Positions 7,978-56,846 of a DNA stretch of 64,000 nt are shown in pieces (position 1 is the stretch's first letter; each line of letters starts with the position of its first letter). Source of the DNA: Anaerolineaceae bacterium oral taxon 439 (lineage in GTDB: Bacteria; Chloroflexota; Anaerolineae; Anaerolineales; Anaerolineaceae). The notes beneath the pieces were generated by a model. It searched no databases. It had not been told where the DNA came from and saw only the letters and a list, made by a program, of their open reading frames with translations. The stretch spans positions 2,294,001 to 2,358,000 of the forward strand of contig CP017039.1 of NCBI GenBank assembly GCA_001717545.1, given 5' to 3'. The translations under genes and the position numbers were made by a program.

Positions 7978-8859
7978 ATGACACAAAAGAGAAATAAACT
8001 TTGGGCCGCCTGGGTCCTTATTCTACCTGCAATCCTGATAAGAGCTTTTACAACCCTATACCCGGTAGCCATAACGCTGTATAACAGCCTGTTCGAAATA
8101 AACGGATTTAAAGGCGGAATTCCAATTTTCGTCGGACTCGGAAATTTCTGCCGTGCGTTCTCAGATCCAAAACTGATTACGTCGATCTCGTTTACATTAA
8201 TCTTCACCTTCTTCTCAATCCTGGGACATCTCATTTTAGGAATGATTCTCGCGCTTGTGCTGAATTATAAATTCCGGGGGCAGCAGTTATTGAGGACCAT
8301 CGTTCTTATCCCATGGGCTATGCCGATGGTTGTCGCCGGAATCGCCGCGCGTTGGGCGTTTAACGATCAGTTCGGCCTCATCAACGACCTGATTCGAAGA
8401 TTTTTCCCAAATTTTCATTACGATTGGCTGGTCAATACAGGCTCAGCGCGCGCTGCGGTCATCCTGGTCGACATGTGGAAGGACATACCATTTTTCGCGA
8501 TCCTGATTTTAGCCGCGCTCCAATTCATCCCGGGAGAAATATACGAAGCGGCGAAAATTGACGGTTCAGGCCCGATCCGAACCTTTTTCAGCGTTACGCT
8601 GCCGAATATTGCGAAAACGCTCCTCTCGCAGTGCATCTTCTTCATTCTCTGGCGAATAACGAGTTTCGACCTTGTTTACGCGATGACCTCCGGAGGGCCA
8701 GGCGATTCAACCACGCTCCTGAGCTATCGGATCATGCTCGAAGCGTTTAATAACCTGAATCCCGGGTACGCGTCCGCAATCTCGGTCATTCTTTTTATCC
8801 TGATGGCGATTGTCGCCGGAATCAACCTGACCGCGCTGAAAAAAATCGGAAACAAATAG
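7978..8859 (+). CDS. CUT1 sugar ABC permease (MalF/UgpA type)
   Basis: The 293-residue protein has about six membrane helices and the binding-protein-dependent permease signature EAA at 190-192 (YEAAKIDGSGPIRTFF...LP), which docks on the ATPase. It is the first permease of the importer and lies 107 nt after the binding protein. The second permease follows after 10 nt. No ATP-binding subunit gene is present in this operon. Confidence 0.93.
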   Translation: MTQKRNKLWAAWVLILPAILIRAFTTLYPVAITLYNSLFEINGFKGGIPIFVGLGNFCRAFSDPKLITSISFTLIFTFFSILGHLILGMILALVLNYKFRGQQLLRTIVLIPWAMPMVVAGIAARWAFNDQFGLINDLIRRFFPNFHYDWLVNTGSARAAVILVDMWKDIPFFAILILAALQFIPGEIYEAAKIDGSGPIRTFFSVTLPNIAKTLLSQCIFFILWRITSFDLVYAMTSGGPGDSTTLLSYRIMLEAFNNLNPGYASAISVILFILMAIVAGINLTALKKIGNK

Positions 8860-42861: not shown

Positions 42862-43827
42862 TCATATTTTTAAATATTTTCGCACGGCTTGATTAAAGAC
42901 GACCGCCGCCAAGAGGACGATCCCCAAGACAGCTAATTGCCAGACAGAATTCACATTGGCAATTTGCAGCCCTGAATTCAGAATCGTCAGTACTAATACG
43001 CCTGCAATTACAGCGCCCAAACTCCCCTTTCCACCTTCCACCGCGATACCACCTAAACAAGCCACTGTGATAGCCTGAAGCTCAAGTCCGGTTCCAGCGT
43101 CGGCTCGCGCAGTCATGATCCAGGAATTATTAATGATGGCGCCAAACGATGCCAAAAGGCCAGCGACCATATAAATCGCTATTTTTATTTTCCTTTCATC
43201 AATAACAGCGAATTTTGCAGCTTCCGGGTTCGTTCCCAAAAGGTATACCTGCCGTCCGAATTTCGTCATATACATCAGTATTAGAATCGCAGCAGAGACT
43301 GGAAACGCAACAAATAAAATCTGATTGGGAATTCCGAAAGTACTTTTTAAAGAGAGAAATTTAAACGATTCGGGGAAACCGCTAATCGGAATCCCTCCTG
43401 TCAGAAACAGAGCAAGAGAGCTAAAAATATATTGTGTTCCCAGCGTTGCGATCAAAGAAGGGATCTTAACAACTGAAATCAAAAGTCCGTTTACGAATCC
43501 AAAAAAAAATCCAACAACGACGGTCAAACCTAACGCTATCATTAAACCCGCTCCCGCCCGAATCAGTAGACCAAATATAACCCCGGATAAACTCAGGATC
43601 GCACCGATTGAAAGATCAATTCCCTCTCGCCCCGATAGCATAACAATCGACTCGCCAAGCGCAAGAAGCAGCAAAACTGCGCCAAACTGGGTAAGTTCGA
43701 TAAGGTTTTGAATACTCAAAAAATACCGGCTTGAAAATGACAACAACAAAATTTCAACAGCTAACAGAAAAAATAACATCCTCGTTCTGCTGGACACAAA
43801 AAAAACAGCTATTTTTCTCATTTCCAA
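42862..43827 (-). CDS. CUT2 sugar ABC permease (RbsC type), second copy of pair
   Basis: The 321-residue protein has eight to ten membrane helices and RbsC blocks: LSGREGIDLSIGAILSLSGVI, VNGLLISVVKIPSLIATLGT, YLLGTNPEAAKFA, and AITVACLGGIAVEGGKGSLGAVIAGVLVL. It overlaps the previous permease by 10 nt. Two different permeases imply a heterodimeric channel, as in AI-2 and rhamnose systems. Confidence 0.93.
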   Translation of the reverse strand: MEMRKIAVFFVSSRTRMLFFLLAVEILLLSFSSRYFLSIQNLIELTQFGAVLLLLALGESIVMLSGREGIDLSIGAILSLSGVIFGLLIRAGAGLMIALGLTVVVGFFFGFVNGLLISVVKIPSLIATLGTQYIFSSLALFLTGGIPISGFPESFKFLSLKSTFGIPNQILFVAFPVSAAILILMYMTKFGRQVYLLGTNPEAAKFAVIDERKIKIAIYMVAGLLASFGAIINNSWIMTARADAGTGLELQAITVACLGGIAVEGGKGSLGAVIAGVLVLTILNSGLQIANVNSVWQLAVLGIVLLAAVVFNQAVRKYLKI

Positions 43828-44795
43828 CTCACTTTATTTCGAAGATCTCTTATTGGCCACAGCACCATATCAAAAAAAACGGAGATAATAATCAGAAGTC
43901 CAATAAAACAATTCTCGAGCAAAGACGGTATTCCCAGAATAACGATTCCATTTCTGAGGAACGCGATAAATAATACACCAGCTAACGTCCCAATGACGCT
44001 TCCCCGTTTTCCACCGCCTCTCATCCCAATTCCGCCAATCGTCGCAGCCGCAATCGCTGAAATAGCCGTATCGCTTCCGATTGTCATTTCGACACTACCC
44101 ATCCGGGCAATATACAACATCGCCGCCATTGCAGCCAGCGCACCGGCAAGGCCATAAGACTTTACTTTGACATTCGTAATCTTAATACCGCTTAGATGAG
44201 CCGCGACAGGATTGCTTCCGATCGCGTAGATCGAACGCCCAAATCTCCGATACATCATAATGTAATAAGAAATGGCATATATAGTTAATACAATCACCAA
44301 TAAAATCGGAACGCCGAATATTCGCGCCCGAGTTACCGAACCATACACTGGGTTTAGCCCGGTCAACCATTTCCCTCCTAACAGCATAAAAATCAACGCG
44401 CGCCAGATATTCATTGTCGCCAACGTGACGATCATATCCGGAATATCAAAAAACGTAATGATCAGTCCGTTTACCGTCCCAAGCGCAACCCCGATAAAAA
44501 TCGCAATCAATAAAATAAGGAAGCTATTAGCTTCCGCCTGGATCATGTAGCCCGCGACAATAGCGACAACACCCATCACAGAGCCAACCGAAAGATCGAT
44601 ACCACCTAACAACATGACGATCGTCATACCAATACTGATAATAGATATTTCAGCCGAATTCTGTATGACACGAAAAAGGTTCCGACTCGATAAAAAATTA
44701 GGCGCAATAAAACCAAAGACAATTATTTCTACAAATAGCAGGAAAAAGGTGAAATATTCTCTTCTCCCAGGTTTCGGTATACATCTCGCGAACAT
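43818..44795 (-). CDS. CUT2 sugar ABC permease (RbsC type), first copy of pair
   Basis: The 325-residue protein has the RbsC blocks MLLGGIDLSVGSVMGVVAIV, VNGLIITFFDIPDMIVTLATM, YAIGSNPVAAHLSGI, and AIAAATIGGIGMRGGGKRGSVIGTLAGVLF. It overlaps the second permease gene by 10 nt and follows the hydrolase gene after 19 nt, so one transcript is likely. Confidence 0.93.
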   Translation of the reverse strand: MFARCIPKPGRREYFTFFLLFVEIIVFGFIAPNFLSSRNLFRVIQNSAEISIISIGMTIVMLLGGIDLSVGSVMGVVAIVAGYMIQAEANSFLILLIAIFIGVALGTVNGLIITFFDIPDMIVTLATMNIWRALIFMLLGGKWLTGLNPVYGSVTRARIFGVPILLVIVLTIYAISYYIMMYRRFGRSIYAIGSNPVAAHLSGIKITNVKVKSYGLAGALAAMAAMLYIARMGSVEMTIGSDTAISAIAAATIGGIGMRGGGKRGSVIGTLAGVLFIAFLRNGIVILGIPSLLENCFIGLLIIISVFFDMVLWPIRDLRNKVSWK

Positions 44796-44814
44796 TGGAT
44801 TCCCTTTTCTGCAG

Positions 44815-46137
44815 TCAATCCTGCCGCTGAATAGCTGGTTCGCACCATTCCAAAATAAGCGACGATATGATCTTTGTACATTGAATCAATTCCGAAATCT
44901 CGACAAATTCATTCGCTTGATGTGCTAGGCGAGGATCGCCAGGGCCCAAATTTATCGTTGGTATTCCAACGTTACAAAACCAACCCATATCTGTATGGCA
45001 ACAAATTCCTTCCACAAGTGACTTGGGATTCGTTTTCTTTGCAGACTCCCAAACAACATGAAAAAAGGGTTGATCGTCTAAGGTCTCGCCACAATCAGCG
45101 TCAACAATCCACGTTACTATAGGCGGATTCTCTTTTAGCCAGTCGTCAGCTTGAGCAAATTCCTTGATAAAGTTCTCAATCTCGATCTTGACCTTACCGC
45201 CCAACCCATTATCATCTTTTTCTTCAGGTAAATATTGTGCGTTAAAGATGACTTCGGCTGAGCTGGCAAATGTCGTCGGAAATTCCCCTGCGTTTATCTG
45301 CGCAATATTAATTTGACAAGGTATCGGTAAATACTTATGCTGTTTTGACTGCGCCCATTTTCGATTCAACCCCTTCAGCTTGTCAAGAAAGACCGCCAAT
45401 TTGTCAATCGCGTCAACCGCTCCGCCCGTTCGCCAATCCCCCTGCGGCAATTCGATATGCCCATTCCGTCCAGGAATCGTAATCTTCCCCCATAAAATCC
45501 CTCTGCATAACGGCGCGACATTCAAATGGGTCGGCTCTGTTATCAGGCATCCATCCGCACGATACCCATGATCCACAAAAGCTAACGTTCCCATTCCGCC
45601 AGCTTCTTCGCCCACAACCGTACCGATCTGAACGTCGCCTTTCAACCGGATATGACATTCCTGAATCGCTTTGAACGCGACTGTCATACAAGCGATCCCG
45701 CCTTTCATATCGACAGCGCCCCGTCCATATACTCTCCCGTCCTTCCTGCACCCGCCAAACGGATCAACCGTCCATCCAACGCCTCGTGCAACAACGTCAA
45801 TATGCCCGGAAAGCAGAAGGGATCGGCCATCTCCATCGCCTTTATAAACTCCATACAAATTAGGCCGATCTTCGAAAGTGTAATTCGGATAGTAGCCCGC
45901 TTTTCCTTTATACTTCGCGAGCCCAATCGGATCAGGATAACTAAATTCAGTTTTCATTCCCATCTGGGTCAAATACTTTTGAAGAACCCGCTGCGCGTCT
46001 CCTTCGCGCATATACATTTTTTCTTCATTAAAATATGGCGTCACGCTCGGAACACGAATCAGATCCGTTAACAAATTAACAACTTCATCAGAATGTTCTT
46101 CAATCCATCGATGTACAAGTTCAACGTGCGATTCCAT
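44815..46137 (-). CDS. M20-family metallohydrolase (ArgE/DapE/acylase type) inside the importer operon
   Basis: The 440-residue protein has the M20 zinc site: SGHIDVV (H112, D114), GRGAVDMKGG (D143), the catalytic pair GEEAGG (E177, E178), and later ICCHTDMGWF. A dimerisation domain lies in the middle (about 215-330). It deacylates or hydrolyses amide-linked compounds in the cytoplasm. It sits between the ATPase and permease genes with gaps of 48 and 19 nt. It may therefore process the imported substrate. The substrate itself is unknown. Confidence 0.92.
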   Translation of the reverse strand: MESHVELVHRWIEEHSDEVVNLLTDLIRVPSVTPYFNEEKMYMREGDAQRVLQKYLTQMGMKTEFSYPDPIGLAKYKGKAGYYPNYTFEDRPNLYGVYKGDGDGRSLLLSGHIDVVARGVGWTVDPFGGCRKDGRVYGRGAVDMKGGIACMTVAFKAIQECHIRLKGDVQIGTVVGEEAGGMGTLAFVDHGYRADGCLITEPTHLNVAPLCRGILWGKITIPGRNGHIELPQGDWRTGGAVDAIDKLAVFLDKLKGLNRKWAQSKQHKYLPIPCQINIAQINAGEFPTTFASSAEVIFNAQYLPEEKDDNGLGGKVKIEIENFIKEFAQADDWLKENPPIVTWIVDADCGETLDDQPFFHVVWESAKKTNPKSLVEGICCHTDMGWFCNVGIPTINLGPGDPRLAHQANEFVEISELIQCTKIISSLILEWCEPAIQRQD

Positions 46138-46185
46138 TATTCGTCCTTTTCATAAAGCAAAATAACCATCATAAAATCAATATAA

Positions 46186-47685
46186 TTACGCTAAACCAAG
46201 CGCAGCCGCCAGAATTTCTCTTTCTGTAAAAGCAACGTGCATAAAGCTTCCAGTAATTCTTCCTTTGCGAAACGTGATAACTCGATCCGATAATTCCAGA
46301 ATCTCCTTTAGATCGGAGGATATCAGAATAATTGCAACCTCCTGCACCGCTAAATCCATAATAAATTTATGAATCTCAGTTTTCGTCATCACATCAATAC
46401 CGCGGGTTGGCTCATCTAAAATCAAGACGTCCGGCCTGTCCAGCAACCATCGACAGAAGAGGACCTTTTGTTGACTTCCACCGCTCAAATTATCGATCAG
46501 CGCATCCGAAGAATCCGTCTTAATCGAATATTTTTCAATATTTTCATGAACAATCTTTCGTTCCTCTTTTTTTAAAATAAAGCCTAATCGATCAGATAGC
46601 TTATCTAAAAATGGAACGCTCATGTTTTCCAAGACGGAATGACCATGAAATAAACCCTGAACGCCTCGATCCTCAGGAACATAATAAATATGCCGCCGAA
46701 CAATTTCAGCGATCCGCATTCCCGTTATATTCTCATCCTTCAAAAGAACCTGCCCTTTTTCAGGTTTCTTGTACCCAAAAACTGCACGGGCGATTTCACT
46801 CCTGCCAGACCCAACAAGACCGTAAAATCCTAAAATTTCTCCCGGACGCAGCTCAAAACAAATATCCTGATACTCGACACCGCAGCATAAATCTTTAACA
46901 CTGAGAATTGGGGGCTTTTCCTCGTATGAACGAGGAACAAAAACGTCTGTATTAATCAGTCTGCCAGACATGGCAGTCACAATTTTCGTTTCATCAACTT
47001 GTTCGGGACTTACGCTTCCAGTAACCTGGCCGTCTCTCATCACGATAATATTGTCAGAAATTCTTAAAACTTCCGGGATACGGTGACTGATATATAGAAT
47101 GCTGACACCTCTGGATTTAAGCTTCGCAATAATCTCAAACAACTTTTCGGACTCGTTATGACTCAAGATAGAAGTCGGTTCATCTAATATAAGAATGCTG
47201 CAATCCTTATAAATTCCTCGGGCTATAAGAACTAACTGCTGATTTCCTATGGATAACTCGCTCATTGAAAGACTTAGCACATCCTCAGATAAACCAACCA
47301 ATCTTAATGCGCTGACTCCCGAATCATACATTCTCTTCCAATTAACCGATCCGCTTCGATTCACGAACTCATTTCCAGAAAAAATATTTTCAAGAACGGA
47401 TAGGTCAGAGAATATATTAGGTTCCTGGAAAACGATCGAAATACCTTTTTTCATGGCATCAAGCGGCGATTGAAAAAAAACTTTTTCGCCGTCCATCCAG
47501 ATTTCACCTGAGTCCTGCTGAATTGCTCCTGCAACAATCTTCATTAAGGTCGACTTACCAGCGCCATTCTCGCCTACGATAGATAAAACCTTACCTCGAT
47601 CCAAGTCAAGGCTGACATTTCTCAAGGCCTTTATTCCGCCAAAAGATTTTTCAATAGAAACCAGTTTCAGTAATGGAACATTCAT
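46186..47685 (-). CDS. CUT2 sugar ABC ATPase, two domains (RbsA type)
   Basis: The 499-residue protein has two ABC domains. The first has Walker A GENGAGKST, LSIGNQQLVLIARGI and LILDEPTSIL. The second has a degenerate Walker A (GLVGSGRSE), LSGGSQQKVLFCRWLL and LILDEPTRGIDV. This is the RbsA arrangement. The ATG at 47685 follows AAAAAGG and begins the domain; 49 further codons upstream have no family similarity and cross the intergenic hairpin. Confidence 0.93.
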   Translation of the reverse strand: MNVPLLKLVSIEKSFGGIKALRNVSLDLDRGKVLSIVGENGAGKSTLMKIVAGAIQQDSGEIWMDGEKVFFQSPLDAMKKGISIVFQEPNIFSDLSVLENIFSGNEFVNRSGSVNWKRMYDSGVSALRLVGLSEDVLSLSMSELSIGNQQLVLIARGIYKDCSILILDEPTSILSHNESEKLFEIIAKLKSRGVSILYISHRIPEVLRISDNIIVMRDGQVTGSVSPEQVDETKIVTAMSGRLINTDVFVPRSYEEKPPILSVKDLCCGVEYQDICFELRPGEILGFYGLVGSGRSEIARAVFGYKKPEKGQVLLKDENITGMRIAEIVRRHIYYVPEDRGVQGLFHGHSVLENMSVPFLDKLSDRLGFILKKEERKIVHENIEKYSIKTDSSDALIDNLSGGSQQKVLFCRWLLDRPDVLILDEPTRGIDVMTKTEIHKFIMDLAVQEVAIILISSDLKEILELSDRVITFRKGRITGSFMHVAFTEREILAAALGLA

Positions 47686-47700
47686 AATAACCTTTTTATC

Positions 47701-47732
47701 CCAAACGCCGATCACATCGGGCCGGCGTTTGG
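47701..47732 (-). promoter_or_regulatory. Stem-loop after binding-protein gene, CUT2 importer
   Basis: CCAAACGCCG and CGGCGTTTGG are exact complements (10 bp) around a 12-nt loop between the binding-protein and ATPase genes. No T-run of note follows. Confidence 0.7.
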
Positions 47733-47755
47733 AATCGAAAGACGAAACGGTGCCG

Positions 47756-48766
47756 CTAAAAAGTAAAATTATTAACGTTGTCCGGAGTAATAACGAGCGG
47801 ATCGCCAAGCAAAAGGATCTTCTCATCCTCAAAGTATTTCACTGGATGATCAAAGCCTTCAACATGATTCTCTTCCTCAAACGGTTTCCCTTCAACAGCC
47901 ATTTTTCCAGCCCAAACGGTAAGATATCCAAGCTCATAGGCATTCCAAAGGATTGACCTTGCCATCACTCCAGAATCCATATAAGGCTTTACAGTCGCGG
48001 GAGAACCATAACCAATAACCGCGATTTCGCCTGCGCGACCTTCTTGCTGAACGGCCTGCGCAACGCCAGGAATGGTTGAAGACGCAACGGCAATGAGACC
48101 CTTCAAATCAGGATATCTTGTCATTAGCTCCTGCGCTTGTTTTAGAGCCTGCTCGCTGCTTCCGCCTTGGGTGTATCGAATGTCGACGATTTCAATTTCA
48201 GGATATTTTTCCGCAATTCGCTCCTTCATATAGTCAATCCATGTGTTCAAATTTGTTGCAGTAGATTCACCGGAAACAATTCCAACCTGTCCTTGATTTT
48301 CAATTTGAGCAGCAAGTTCATCAACTAAGATGTATCCTAAATCTTTATCAAGCGCCTGCGCGACATAAAATTCCCTACGGCTGTCTGGCGCGTCGGAGTC
48401 CGAAGTAAAAACGTGAATACCGGCCTCTTGCGCCTTCTCGATATACGGATTGGTTGACGAGCTATCGAGTGTTGAAATAGCAATCGCGTCGACCCCCTGT
48501 CGAATCAGACTATCCAAAATTTTTACCTGCTCAGCCGCACTTGCCTGCGTCGCCCCAGTATAAAGAAACTCAACATCAAGATCCTCAGCGGCTTTCATTC
48601 CACCATCCTCCATCGCCGTAAAATATGGAATCCCAATAAGCTGAGGGATAAAGGCTATGCGCAATTTCGATGAATCTGATTGAGCAATTACGCGCCCACC
48701 GATTTCACAAAAACAAGCAACACAAATAACTACGAAAAATAGAAAGAATTTCAAAATCTTCTTCAT
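47756..48766 (-). CDS. CUT2 sugar-binding protein (RbsB type)
   Basis: The 336-residue protein has a signal peptide (about 1-29, cleavage near RVIA-QS) and a type 1 periplasmic binding fold: LRIAFIPQLIGIPYFTAMEDGGMKAA, QVKILDSLIRQGVDAIAISTLDSS, VFTSDSDAP, and QVGIVSGESTATNLN. GGGAGG precedes the ATG. It is the first gene of the operon, behind a strong promoter and LacI-type operator. The ligand may be a sugar or an acylated sugar or amine, given the M20 gene. Confidence 0.93.
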   Translation of the reverse strand: MKKILKFFLFFVVICVACFCEIGGRVIAQSDSSKLRIAFIPQLIGIPYFTAMEDGGMKAAEDLDVEFLYTGATQASAAEQVKILDSLIRQGVDAIAISTLDSSSTNPYIEKAQEAGIHVFTSDSDAPDSRREFYVAQALDKDLGYILVDELAAQIENQGQVGIVSGESTATNLNTWIDYMKERIAEKYPEIEIVDIRYTQGGSSEQALKQAQELMTRYPDLKGLIAVASSTIPGVAQAVQQEGRAGEIAVIGYGSPATVKPYMDSGVMARSILWNAYELGYLTVWAGKMAVEGKPFEEENHVEGFDHPVKYFEDEKILLLGDPLVITPDNVNNFTF

Positions 48767-54453: not shown

Positions 54454-54796
54454 TTACGGCGTTATTTTAAGCCGGAGAGCGGGACGGACTGCGCTCCTGC
54501 GGGGAACATAGAAACCATAGTGGAGGAGCGAGCCACCCGCGTGGACTTCCGCGGCTTTATCACTATTGTGGTCCGGCGACGAAGCCACCACCACACCGTT
54601 CCCAGGTCGCTGTTCACATACACATCCTGCGCGATCACGTACTCCGTCGGAAAAGTCCTCCGGTCCTCGTCGTCTTCAAAATGCCGCTCCGCTTCCCAAA
54701 GGCTCAGCAGGAATACCCGGTCCTCCGTATCCCTCCCGCCGCTCTTCCCGTACCTCGGATTGTCCGCGTTCTCCACCTTCGTCAGCGCACCCTTGT
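54454..54796 (-). pseudogene. 3' half of a DUF6273 gene, frameshifted
   Basis: Read on the minus strand, ALTKVENADNPRYGKSGG and DTEDRVFLLSLWEAERHF are the typical middle of DUF6273 proteins, followed by WWWLR. The next expected residues (SPDHNSDKAAEVHAGG, then FYVPRRSAVRPALRL and a TAA at 54454-54456) are present but in another frame. One base is missing near 54578-54581. The piece continues exactly where the 5' half at 56436-56846 stops. Confidence 0.85.
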
Positions 54797-54911
54797 GTCA
54801 AGTACTGGATACATTTTTTTAATTTTCATCCAATAATACTTGCACGTTATGTTACTATGACTTCATTGATTCATCCTAAAACAAGCTATTCATTCTATAC
54901 TGCTAAATAAT

Positions 54912-55397
54912 TTAGTATATAAATGCTATAAATTTAGCTAAGATTAAAGCCGCTGCCAACAAAACAGGAATAAAGATAATTCTCTTTTTAATTACATTTA
55001 CAACACCAGGTATATATTCACTATCCTTTATACCTTTTATTTTTAGATTCTTGCTATTACTGGTCCATAAAATATCCATAACTAGTCCATCAAAGATATT
55101 CCAGGATTGAAGAAAAATATTTAATTGAATAAACGCTTGTTTAAAATCATTGATTTCATTCCATGACCCGACAATTAATATCAAACTTCCAAACATTAAA
55201 ATAATAAATAAAGAATAAAATATGATTTTATTTCTCTTGATTGTTTTATAATCTGTATAACCAAATTCAACAACCTTATCTATAACAGATTTGGGATAAA
55301 AATATACAATATTAATCGCATTGCCTCTAAATGATAAAGCTACTAATAATGTGAATAATAAGCAATATAAAACCACTTGTAGAAATAAGATATCCAT
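54912..55397 (-). CDS. Small four-helix membrane protein of unknown function
   Basis: The 161-residue protein has hydrophobic stretches at about 2-22, 58-80, 92-108 and 140-160. I do not recognise the family. The start is either this ATG or a GTG at 55412; a GGTG-type site suits the ATG. The A/T-rich codons match the neighbouring ATC hydrolase gene, 48 nt upstream, and not the rest of the window. The two probably arrived together. Confidence 0.65.
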   Translation of the reverse strand: MDILFLQVVLYCLLFTLLVALSFRGNAINIVYFYPKSVIDKVVEFGYTDYKTIKRNKIIFYSLFIILMFGSLILIVGSWNEINDFKQAFIQLNIFLQSWNIFDGLVMDILWTSNSKNLKIKGIKDSEYIPGVVNVIKKRIIFIPVLLAAALILAKFIAFIY

Positions 55398-55445
55398 TTT
55401 AAATATATTCACCTTTAATTATTATATTTTTTTAAATGCAAACAA

Positions 55446-56087
55446 TTATTTAGGATTCTGAACTTTATCTCCAACAATCCAAAAATCACACATATCATCA
55501 CCTTTAGCTAATGTTTTATCCCTAAATAATTTTGCTTTTCTAACTTTAATCGTAAGATGATCTAATTCGCAAAATATAGGAGTTATTTCTTCTAAGTTAT
55601 TATCTTTAAAGAATTTAGCGATTGGACATTTAGTAAAATAATAATAAAATCCATCCTGATGACTATCATCAAAATTAAATTTCCAAGTTTCTGGATACTC
55701 TTTGCGATGAAGCTCTGCCCAATCAGAATTCTTATGCATAAGCTCTTTAAATTTTTTTAAATCTTTTGGGTTATTATAATCTTTCTTGCCCATTAGTTTT
55801 AACAATGTGGGATCTGATAAAGTAATTCTCATTATTTCTTTCAAATCTTCAGAAGTTATTTTGCCTTCGCTTCCCTGCATAAAAGAAAAAAACAACAGAC
55901 AAAAATATAAATTGGAAGCCATGGGATTTTCAGCGCCAATATCATCAGCTTTATTCAGTAATTCTCTATATTCAGCTTTAGCATTTCTAACAATCATCTT
56001 AACATCTTCATCGCTATATTTTATTTTTAATGCTCTTTTTACAAAAGGATTCATCACAAACCAATATATGGGTTTATACTTTAACAT
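55446..56087 (-). CDS. L-2-amino-thiazoline-4-carboxylic acid hydrolase-like protein
   Basis: The 213-residue protein resembles the ATC hydrolase family, mainly in its C-terminal half: DGFYYYFTKCPIAKFFKDN, ITPIFCELDHLT, and KGDDMCDFWIVGD with conserved Cys, Asp and His. The founding enzyme opens a thiazoline ring in cysteine synthesis, but many homologues in Clostridia have no known substrate. GAGGCGG lies 2-3 nt before the ATG. Codon use is strongly A/T-rich, unlike the host. Confidence 0.8.
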   Translation of the reverse strand: MLKYKPIYWFVMNPFVKRALKIKYSDEDVKMIVRNAKAEYRELLNKADDIGAENPMASNLYFCLLFFSFMQGSEGKITSEDLKEIMRITLSDPTLLKLMGKKDYNNPKDLKKFKELMHKNSDWAELHRKEYPETWKFNFDDSHQDGFYYYFTKCPIAKFFKDNNLEEITPIFCELDHLTIKVRKAKLFRDKTLAKGDDMCDFWIVGDKVQNPK

Positions 56088-56171
56088 TTCCGCCTCTAAA
56101 TAACACTAAATTAATACATAAGATATGGTTAATTCTATTATAGAGCCAATAAATTATGTCTTATAACTCTC

Positions 56172-56846
56172 TCATTTTAGACCACCTCGATTTCCTTGAG
56201 ACTCTGTATATATATCCATGCTGGCATCTTCTTTCGCCATTTTCAAATTTTCCAAAACAGCTTTATTAAAAAGGAAATTCTCTTGCGATACATAAGCGAC
56301 GAGTTCCATGTTTTGCTTTAACAGCATATCATTCAAATTGTTTTTTCCGATTAAAATTTCTCCGTCACAGGTATTCCAAAATCCGGCAATTAGTTTTGCG
56401 ATAGTGGATTTGCCACCACCTGAATCCCCGACTATTGCAATCCGCCCCTTCTCTTCCTCATTAAACGCCGTAGCGTAAAATTCTCCGTTCAGCCATCCCC
56501 GCAGCGTGCATTCCGCCCACGTTACGCTCACCCATCCCTTGTTGTACGCTCTCGCGTCCAGCGCGTATTGGCTGACGATCAGCGCGCTCCCGTCGCTCAC
56601 CTCCAGCACACGCCACTCGATCGGCTCCGGTCCGTTCGAAGGATTGTTGTCCTGCTCGTACGACCCGAACTCGATAATGTCCCCCACCTGTACGTCCACG
56701 TACGGGTTCTGCGCCTTAGCCTGCGCCTGCGCTGTCTCAGCGGCGGCTGTCTGTGCGGTCGCTGTTGCGGTGGCCGCCGTTTGCTGCATCGCCGATATCG
56801 CCGCTAATTCTTCCTCCCGCCGTTGTACCGCGATTTCGGTTTGCAT
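56172..56846 (-). pseudogene. Chimeric frame: DUF6273 5' half fused to an ABC-ATPase fragment
   Basis: Residues 1-50 form an Ala/Thr/Gln-rich helical region. Residues 51-137 are the start of a DUF6273 domain (VGDIIEFGSYEQDNN, EWRVLEVSDGSALIVSQ, WLNGEFYATAFNEEEKGRI). From about 138 the text changes to an ABC exporter ATPase: Walker A GDSGGGKST (140-148), LIAGFWNTCDGEI and the Q-loop YVSQENFLF (Q188). After about residue 210 it ends without signature or Walker B. GC falls at the junction. GGAGG 8 nt before the ATG supports the start. The chimera probably has no DUF6273 or ATPase function. Confidence 0.85.

Follow-up and report, generated by a model that had tools for sequence, protein, structure and literature searches.

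ICEs with serine integrase triplets are a described class of element, whose streptococcal members disrupt hsdM, traG or mutT, leave repeats of 2-8 bp and sometimes carry coding sequences between the integrases and the element end (PMC4701971). Here, we analysed a stretch of 64,000 nucleotides (called the window) from Anaerolineaceae bacterium oral taxon 439, corresponding to positions 2294001-2358000 of a genome that consists of one contig of 2,945,494 bases. An insert in this window shares with the streptococcal ICEs (PMC4701971) the element class, the very short direct repeats, the end coding sequences and the disruption of a gene, but differs in its host phylum, in its target, a DUF6273 gene, and in that only 1.65 kb remain. 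As a remnant in an unexpected phylum, it belongs to a known kind of element and is neither a working ICE nor a new class of mobile DNA; most probably it represents what erosion has left of the right arm of a Firmicute serine-integrase-triplet ICE or of a mobilisable derivative. As a case of gene transfer between phyla, from Firmicutes to Chloroflexi, it is a good but not an extraordinary example.

The DUF6273 gene lies on the minus strand, starts at 56846 and is divided by a 1,650-bp unit into two halves, both of which match the Pfam profile DUF6273 (PF19789) above cut-off, the 5' half over profile positions 1-59 and the 3' half over positions 61-136. An earlier note on this DNA had described a DUF6273 gene split by low-GC DNA, with a 3' half that is the family's expected continuation of the 5' half, and both statements hold: the GC content is 28.4% in the insert versus 54% in the flanks, and the joined flanks match the paralogues L003 and L004. 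The alignment to intact DUF6273 genes proposed there was run with these two paralogues from the same genome, which are uninterrupted across the insertion point, and revealed a clean split. At this point L004 reads GGTTGCGCTGACGAAGG, L003 reads GGATCGCGCTGACGG and the joined window flanks read GGATTGCGCTGACGAAGG; by this comparison no host base was lost and the sole duplication is the dinucleotide TG, with copies at 54788-54789 and 56438-56439. The split is real, and the exact ends of the insert, 54790 and 56437, refine the bounds first given (54797-56435). The gene is doubly broken, since its 3' half also carries a frameshift of its own; several intact DUF6273 genes are present in the host genome. 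The features, in the direction of the gene and with the evidence in brackets, are:

56440..56846, minus strand: DUF6273 5' part, ending ..EEEKGR plus GAT (PF19789 positions 1-59; paralogues L003, L004)
56438..56439, minus strand: left TG core copy, continuing into the ABC gene piece (paralogue comparison)
56214..56437, minus strand: ABC exporter gene 1 fragment that continues the DUF6273 reading frame and extends from the Walker A region to ..DASMD (PF00005)
56176..56216, minus strand: 3' end of ABC gene 1 (13 codons and an additional base), following an internal deletion (Bulleidia ABC1 3' end)
56165..56175, minus strand: first codons of ABC gene 2 (MREL-), remainder deleted (alignment)
55446..56087, minus strand: ATC-hydrolase-like gene (PF14196), 213 aa, intact, cargo (profile match; Firmicute relatives)
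54912..55412, minus strand: membrane protein gene, 166 aa, intact, cargo (90% aa identity to Bulleidia, 82% to OH741)
54790..54820, minus strand: element right end, AAAAAAATGTATCCAGTACTTGACACAAGGG, serine-integrase att half-site (Firmicute right ends; complete ICE in genome G959)
54788..54789, minus strand: right TG core copy (Firmicute right-end alignment and paralogue comparison)
54454..54787, minus strand: DUF6273 3' part, with a frameshift near 54578 (PF19789 positions 61-136; translations)

A second DUF6273 gene of this genome (L011, L014; positions 252181-252658 of the genome) is also broken; the apparent cause is a frameshift that separates profile positions 77 and 78. Elsewhere in the window, at 43300-48700, several patches of about 38-42% GC lie in a neighbourhood of about 54% GC.

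The two cargo genes are of Firmicute descent. The ATC-hydrolase-like protein, with a putative function assigned by a match above cut-off to the ATC_hydrolase profile (PF14196, 87.9 bits), has its close relatives in Catonella morbi (92% amino acid identity), Bulleidia extructa (about 90%), Erysipelotrichaceae OH741 (89%) and Boudabousia. These hosts are oral or animal-associated. Both insert ORFs are under purifying constraint, with dN/dS values against the Firmicute copies of 0.11-0.21 for the ATC-hydrolase-like gene and 0.13-0.20 for the membrane protein gene. At the nucleotide level, the 1.27 kb spanning both genes are 90% identical to Bulleidia and 87% identical to OH741, and the ATC-hydrolase-like gene alone is 90% identical to Catonella. 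Because about 1.27 kb are this similar (87-90%) to Firmicute chromosomes, a chance origin is excluded, and the foreign origin suggested previously is confirmed. Bulleidia extructa W1219 (L038) and OH741 (L036) have both genes in the same order as the insert, but in other chromosomal contexts and without an intact right end; the neighbours of the pair are different in each host. The search for a donor returned Firmicute matches, but no single genome with all pieces of the insert. Nor was a nearer donor within the genus Bulleidia found among 70 genomes, the ATC protein in IMG/VR, or a related insert in plasmids or phages; in the host genome the insert is single-copy. As noted before, its ORFs include no DDE transposase, and neither a DDE insertion sequence nor a composite transposon is indicated, there being no terminal inverted repeat pair and no target duplication beyond TG. 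In Bulleidia W1219 the ATC-like gene is frameshifted (L038 5001-5641), while the window copy is intact.

The right end of the insert is intact at the junction and reads TATCCAGTACTTGACACAAGGG|TG. Its final 30-odd bases, aligned as TATCCARTACTTGACACAAGGG, recur in Firmicute genomes in other surroundings; the reversed pattern, used as a control, gave no match in 200 genomes. Seven Firmicute loci have GGG or GAG at the end, and six of them continue with TG, as the window does; L132 adds one more, and the exception is L087, with CA instead. At L095 the boundary falls at a truncated 36-bp CRISPR repeat and at L103 at a 30-bp CRISPR repeat, and since full repeat copies follow further in both arrays, the GGG|TG boundary is fixed by comparison. 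Empty sites are known for L095, L103, the IS200-type tnpA of G959 and DUF6273, all with the same boundary. The genes upstream of the right end vary by locus (ORF6N, AbiQ-like, ABC-3C); an IMG/VR contig has three adjacent serine integrases there, and many Firmicute right ends carry cargo without integrases. Next to the ATC-membrane pair the end is degenerate in OH741, and no intact one was found in Bulleidia, OH741 or Catonella; the assignment of the pair as ICE cargo therefore comes from the window and OH741 only, as no intact right end lies beside the Firmicute copies. A reading of the end motif as an integron-like cassette or a CRISPR leader was rejected, because non-CRISPR targets have the motif next to them too and the complete ICE identifies it as an element end. 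The IMG/VR matches L116 and L117 were discarded as chance matches in phage genes. The right ends inside CRISPR repeats belong to two unrelated arrays (L095, motif 8167-8188, minus strand, and L096; L103 and L104, G396:C8); these repeats are split exactly at TG, and the repeat TGGAATGTAAAG resembles the tnpA target TGGAATTGTAAG.

The complete ICE was delimited in the present analysis in a genome of the Clostridia (G959:C2:675680-735479; 59,800 bp). Its right end lies inside the IS200-type tnpA and the other tnpA half is found 59.8 kb upstream; joining the tnpA flanks without the ICE restores MDKNSLSHTS-WNCKYHIVF. With attL being CATCG-TG-GGCTTGAG.. and attR ..ACACAAGGG-TG-GAATTG (longer ends: attL ..CACATACATCG-TG-GGCTTGAGATATAATAGGGATAC; attR ..TATCCAATACTTGACACAAGGG-TG-GAATTGTAAG), this 59.8-kb ICE is a fully delimited reference element with both attachment ends known. 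Its left arm is an imperfect palindromic counterpart of its right arm (14/30; 92 of 20,000 shuffles were as good). It encodes a VirD4-type coupling protein, a relaxase and a TraG P-loop ATPase for conjugation, three PF00239/PF07508 serine integrases, a sigma-like ORF, an ABC exporter pair and ORF6N, and a Tn916-type integrase with a ribosomal-protection-type GTPase is nested in it. A search for the integrases in 150 Lachnospiraceae gave no match at E 1e-100, which is too strict a threshold.

The gene order of this ICE is ABC1-ABC2-sigma-integrases-cargo-right end, and the window insert is colinear with it. The two share the right end, the TG core and the order ABC1-ABC2-..-cargo-right end, whereas the insert is devoid of a left end, a conjugation module and integrases and carries the ATC and membrane genes in place of ORF6N. 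Measured against the triplet ICEs as a class, the insert has the terminal sequence with its TG crossover dinucleotide, the TG direct repeat and colinear right-arm genes. None of the three adjacent serine integrase genes and no conjugation module are present within the 1.65 kb, and no left attachment end was detected in the window at ≤6 mismatches; the left arm beyond TG agrees with the left end of the G959 ICE at 8 of 30 positions. A similar case in a Firmicute host is locus L086 of genome G493, an eroded right arm in which ABC1-ABC2 are followed by 316 bp of the ORF6N 3' end and the same right end. It resembles the insert in having ABC genes, a truncated cargo gene and this end, but its ABC genes are intact and its cargo is ORF6N. 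Together, these comparisons replace the mobile cassette of unknown type considered in the earlier note by the attachment end of a known class.

The ABC exporter remnants at the left of the insert fit the same order. The previously reported in-frame fusion of an ATPase region to DUF6273 was reproduced (ABC_tran, PF00005, matches the fusion frame), and the fused piece is closest to Bulleidia ABC1 (G064:C8, L092; 73% nucleotide and 77% amino acid identity). The 52 bases beyond it align to the ABC1 3' end and the beginning of ABC2 with a score of 66, compared to a best score of 31 for about 500 random stretches, and homology to the ATC region starts about 5 bases beyond the ABC2 start piece. What had been taken for one ABC fragment is therefore indeed ABC-derived, but consists of two non-adjacent pieces of one ABC gene and the first codons of the next. 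The insert thus reads ABC1, deletion, ABC1 end, ABC2 start, deletion, ATC, membrane, right end. In Bulleidia, the ABC operon adjoins a homologue of the ICE's sigma-like ORF, which stands just before the integrases there, and in Bulleidia both lie within a traG interrupted by serine-recombinase elements. Two candidate readings were abandoned: 'IYIQSLKEIEVV' is the ABC1 C-terminus and not a C-terminal remnant of a serine integrase, and a circular permutation with the ABC gene as donor attB was dropped, as the ABC genes lie upstream inside the ICE itself. In the same Bulleidia region (G064:C8; L125, L126; about 39-65 kb), two separate elements interrupt the traG/VirD4 gene. A single serine recombinase lies next to the cut in each case, and CTTGACA is present in the right ends of these elements as well.

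Serine-recombinase-mediated integration is by far the best reading of the locus, because the right junction is the crossover point of a serine-integrase site. An ICE with an ABC exporter operon, three integrase genes and, as cargo at its end, the ATC-hydrolase-like gene and the membrane gene would have entered a Chloroflexi cell that shared a habitat, probably oral, with the donor. In the host, the integrases would have exchanged strands between the attachment site and GGAT-TG-CGCTG within the DUF6273 gene, thereby duplicating the TG core. Only afterwards, rather than before its arrival, would deletions have reduced the element to 1.65 kb, at the cost of all integrases, the conjugation module, the left end and most of the ABC sequence. 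The donor ICE is predicted to read GACACAAGGGTG beside the ATC-membrane pair and to have intact integrases. Seen in this way, a gene split that had lacked an explanation becomes a mark, open to dating, that a conjugative element of the Firmicutes left in the chromosome of a member of the Chloroflexi. Several observations speak against the eroded ICE: no integrase, conjugation gene or left end is retained, and the left junction coincides with the core despite the missing left end, which a random deletion would rarely produce. The CA at L087, the missing intact right end beside the Firmicute copies of the ATC-membrane pair and the failure to find all pieces in one donor genome also count against it. 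The left junction may stem from an integrase acting between it and a TG in the ABC gene, from a deletion via TGC (possibly ATTGC) or from a unit shortened beforehand.

The last of these options is the core of the alternative that survives best, although we consider it unlikely. While still in a Firmicute, serine integrases supplied in trans would have recombined the right end with a TG of the ABC gene and so cut out a non-autonomous unit reaching from the ABC piece to the right end; the resulting small circle would have integrated into the TG of DUF6273. Both outer junctions exactly at TG with zero host bases lost are accounted for in this way, and the many Firmicute right ends with cargo but without integrases agree with it; yet the ABC arm does not resemble a left half-site (8/30), and no second unit from the ABC piece to the right end was found in the host genome or in the plasmids and phages searched. 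Still less probable is illegitimate recombination, one of the two options raised earlier; in this case the cell would have taken up naked Firmicute DNA and joined it at microhomologies, with no recombinase involved. The left junction does offer short matches (TGC, or possibly ATTGC, should the donor ABC codon have been ATT) and internal junctions of such a kind are present in the insert, but a chance match to the exact crossover point of an attachment site would be needed with no host base lost, and any recombinase-free alternative demands this coincidence because that is where the right junction falls. Illegitimate recombination must still be invoked to account for the internal deletions, and the left junction may have arisen in that way too, but it is superseded as the main account. 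An assembly artefact or contamination is very improbable, since the genome, as judged from the assembled sequence, is a single contig (estimated contamination 0.92), the insert is single-copy, the point at which it joins the host makes biological sense and its two ORFs are constrained.

For the eroded ICE arm favoured here, the 22-nt plus TG signature is of practical use, as it identifies eroded right arms even after the loss of all integrase genes. A broader and rather doubtful idea is that small non-autonomous cargo units with this right half-site and a degenerate left end are mobilised in trans by serine-integrase triplets and cross phyla, with CRISPR repeats similar to the tnpA target as landing sites. 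The host genome itself encodes three serine recombinases (positions 2227244, 2229034 and 162331; L113-L115), two of them adjacent; their relationship to the triplet integrases is only distant, with 23-28% identity over most of the length. At L088, L104 and L109, where the integrases have been lost, the end cargo is an AbiQ-like gene with short repeats ahead of it, as in type III toxin-antitoxin systems.
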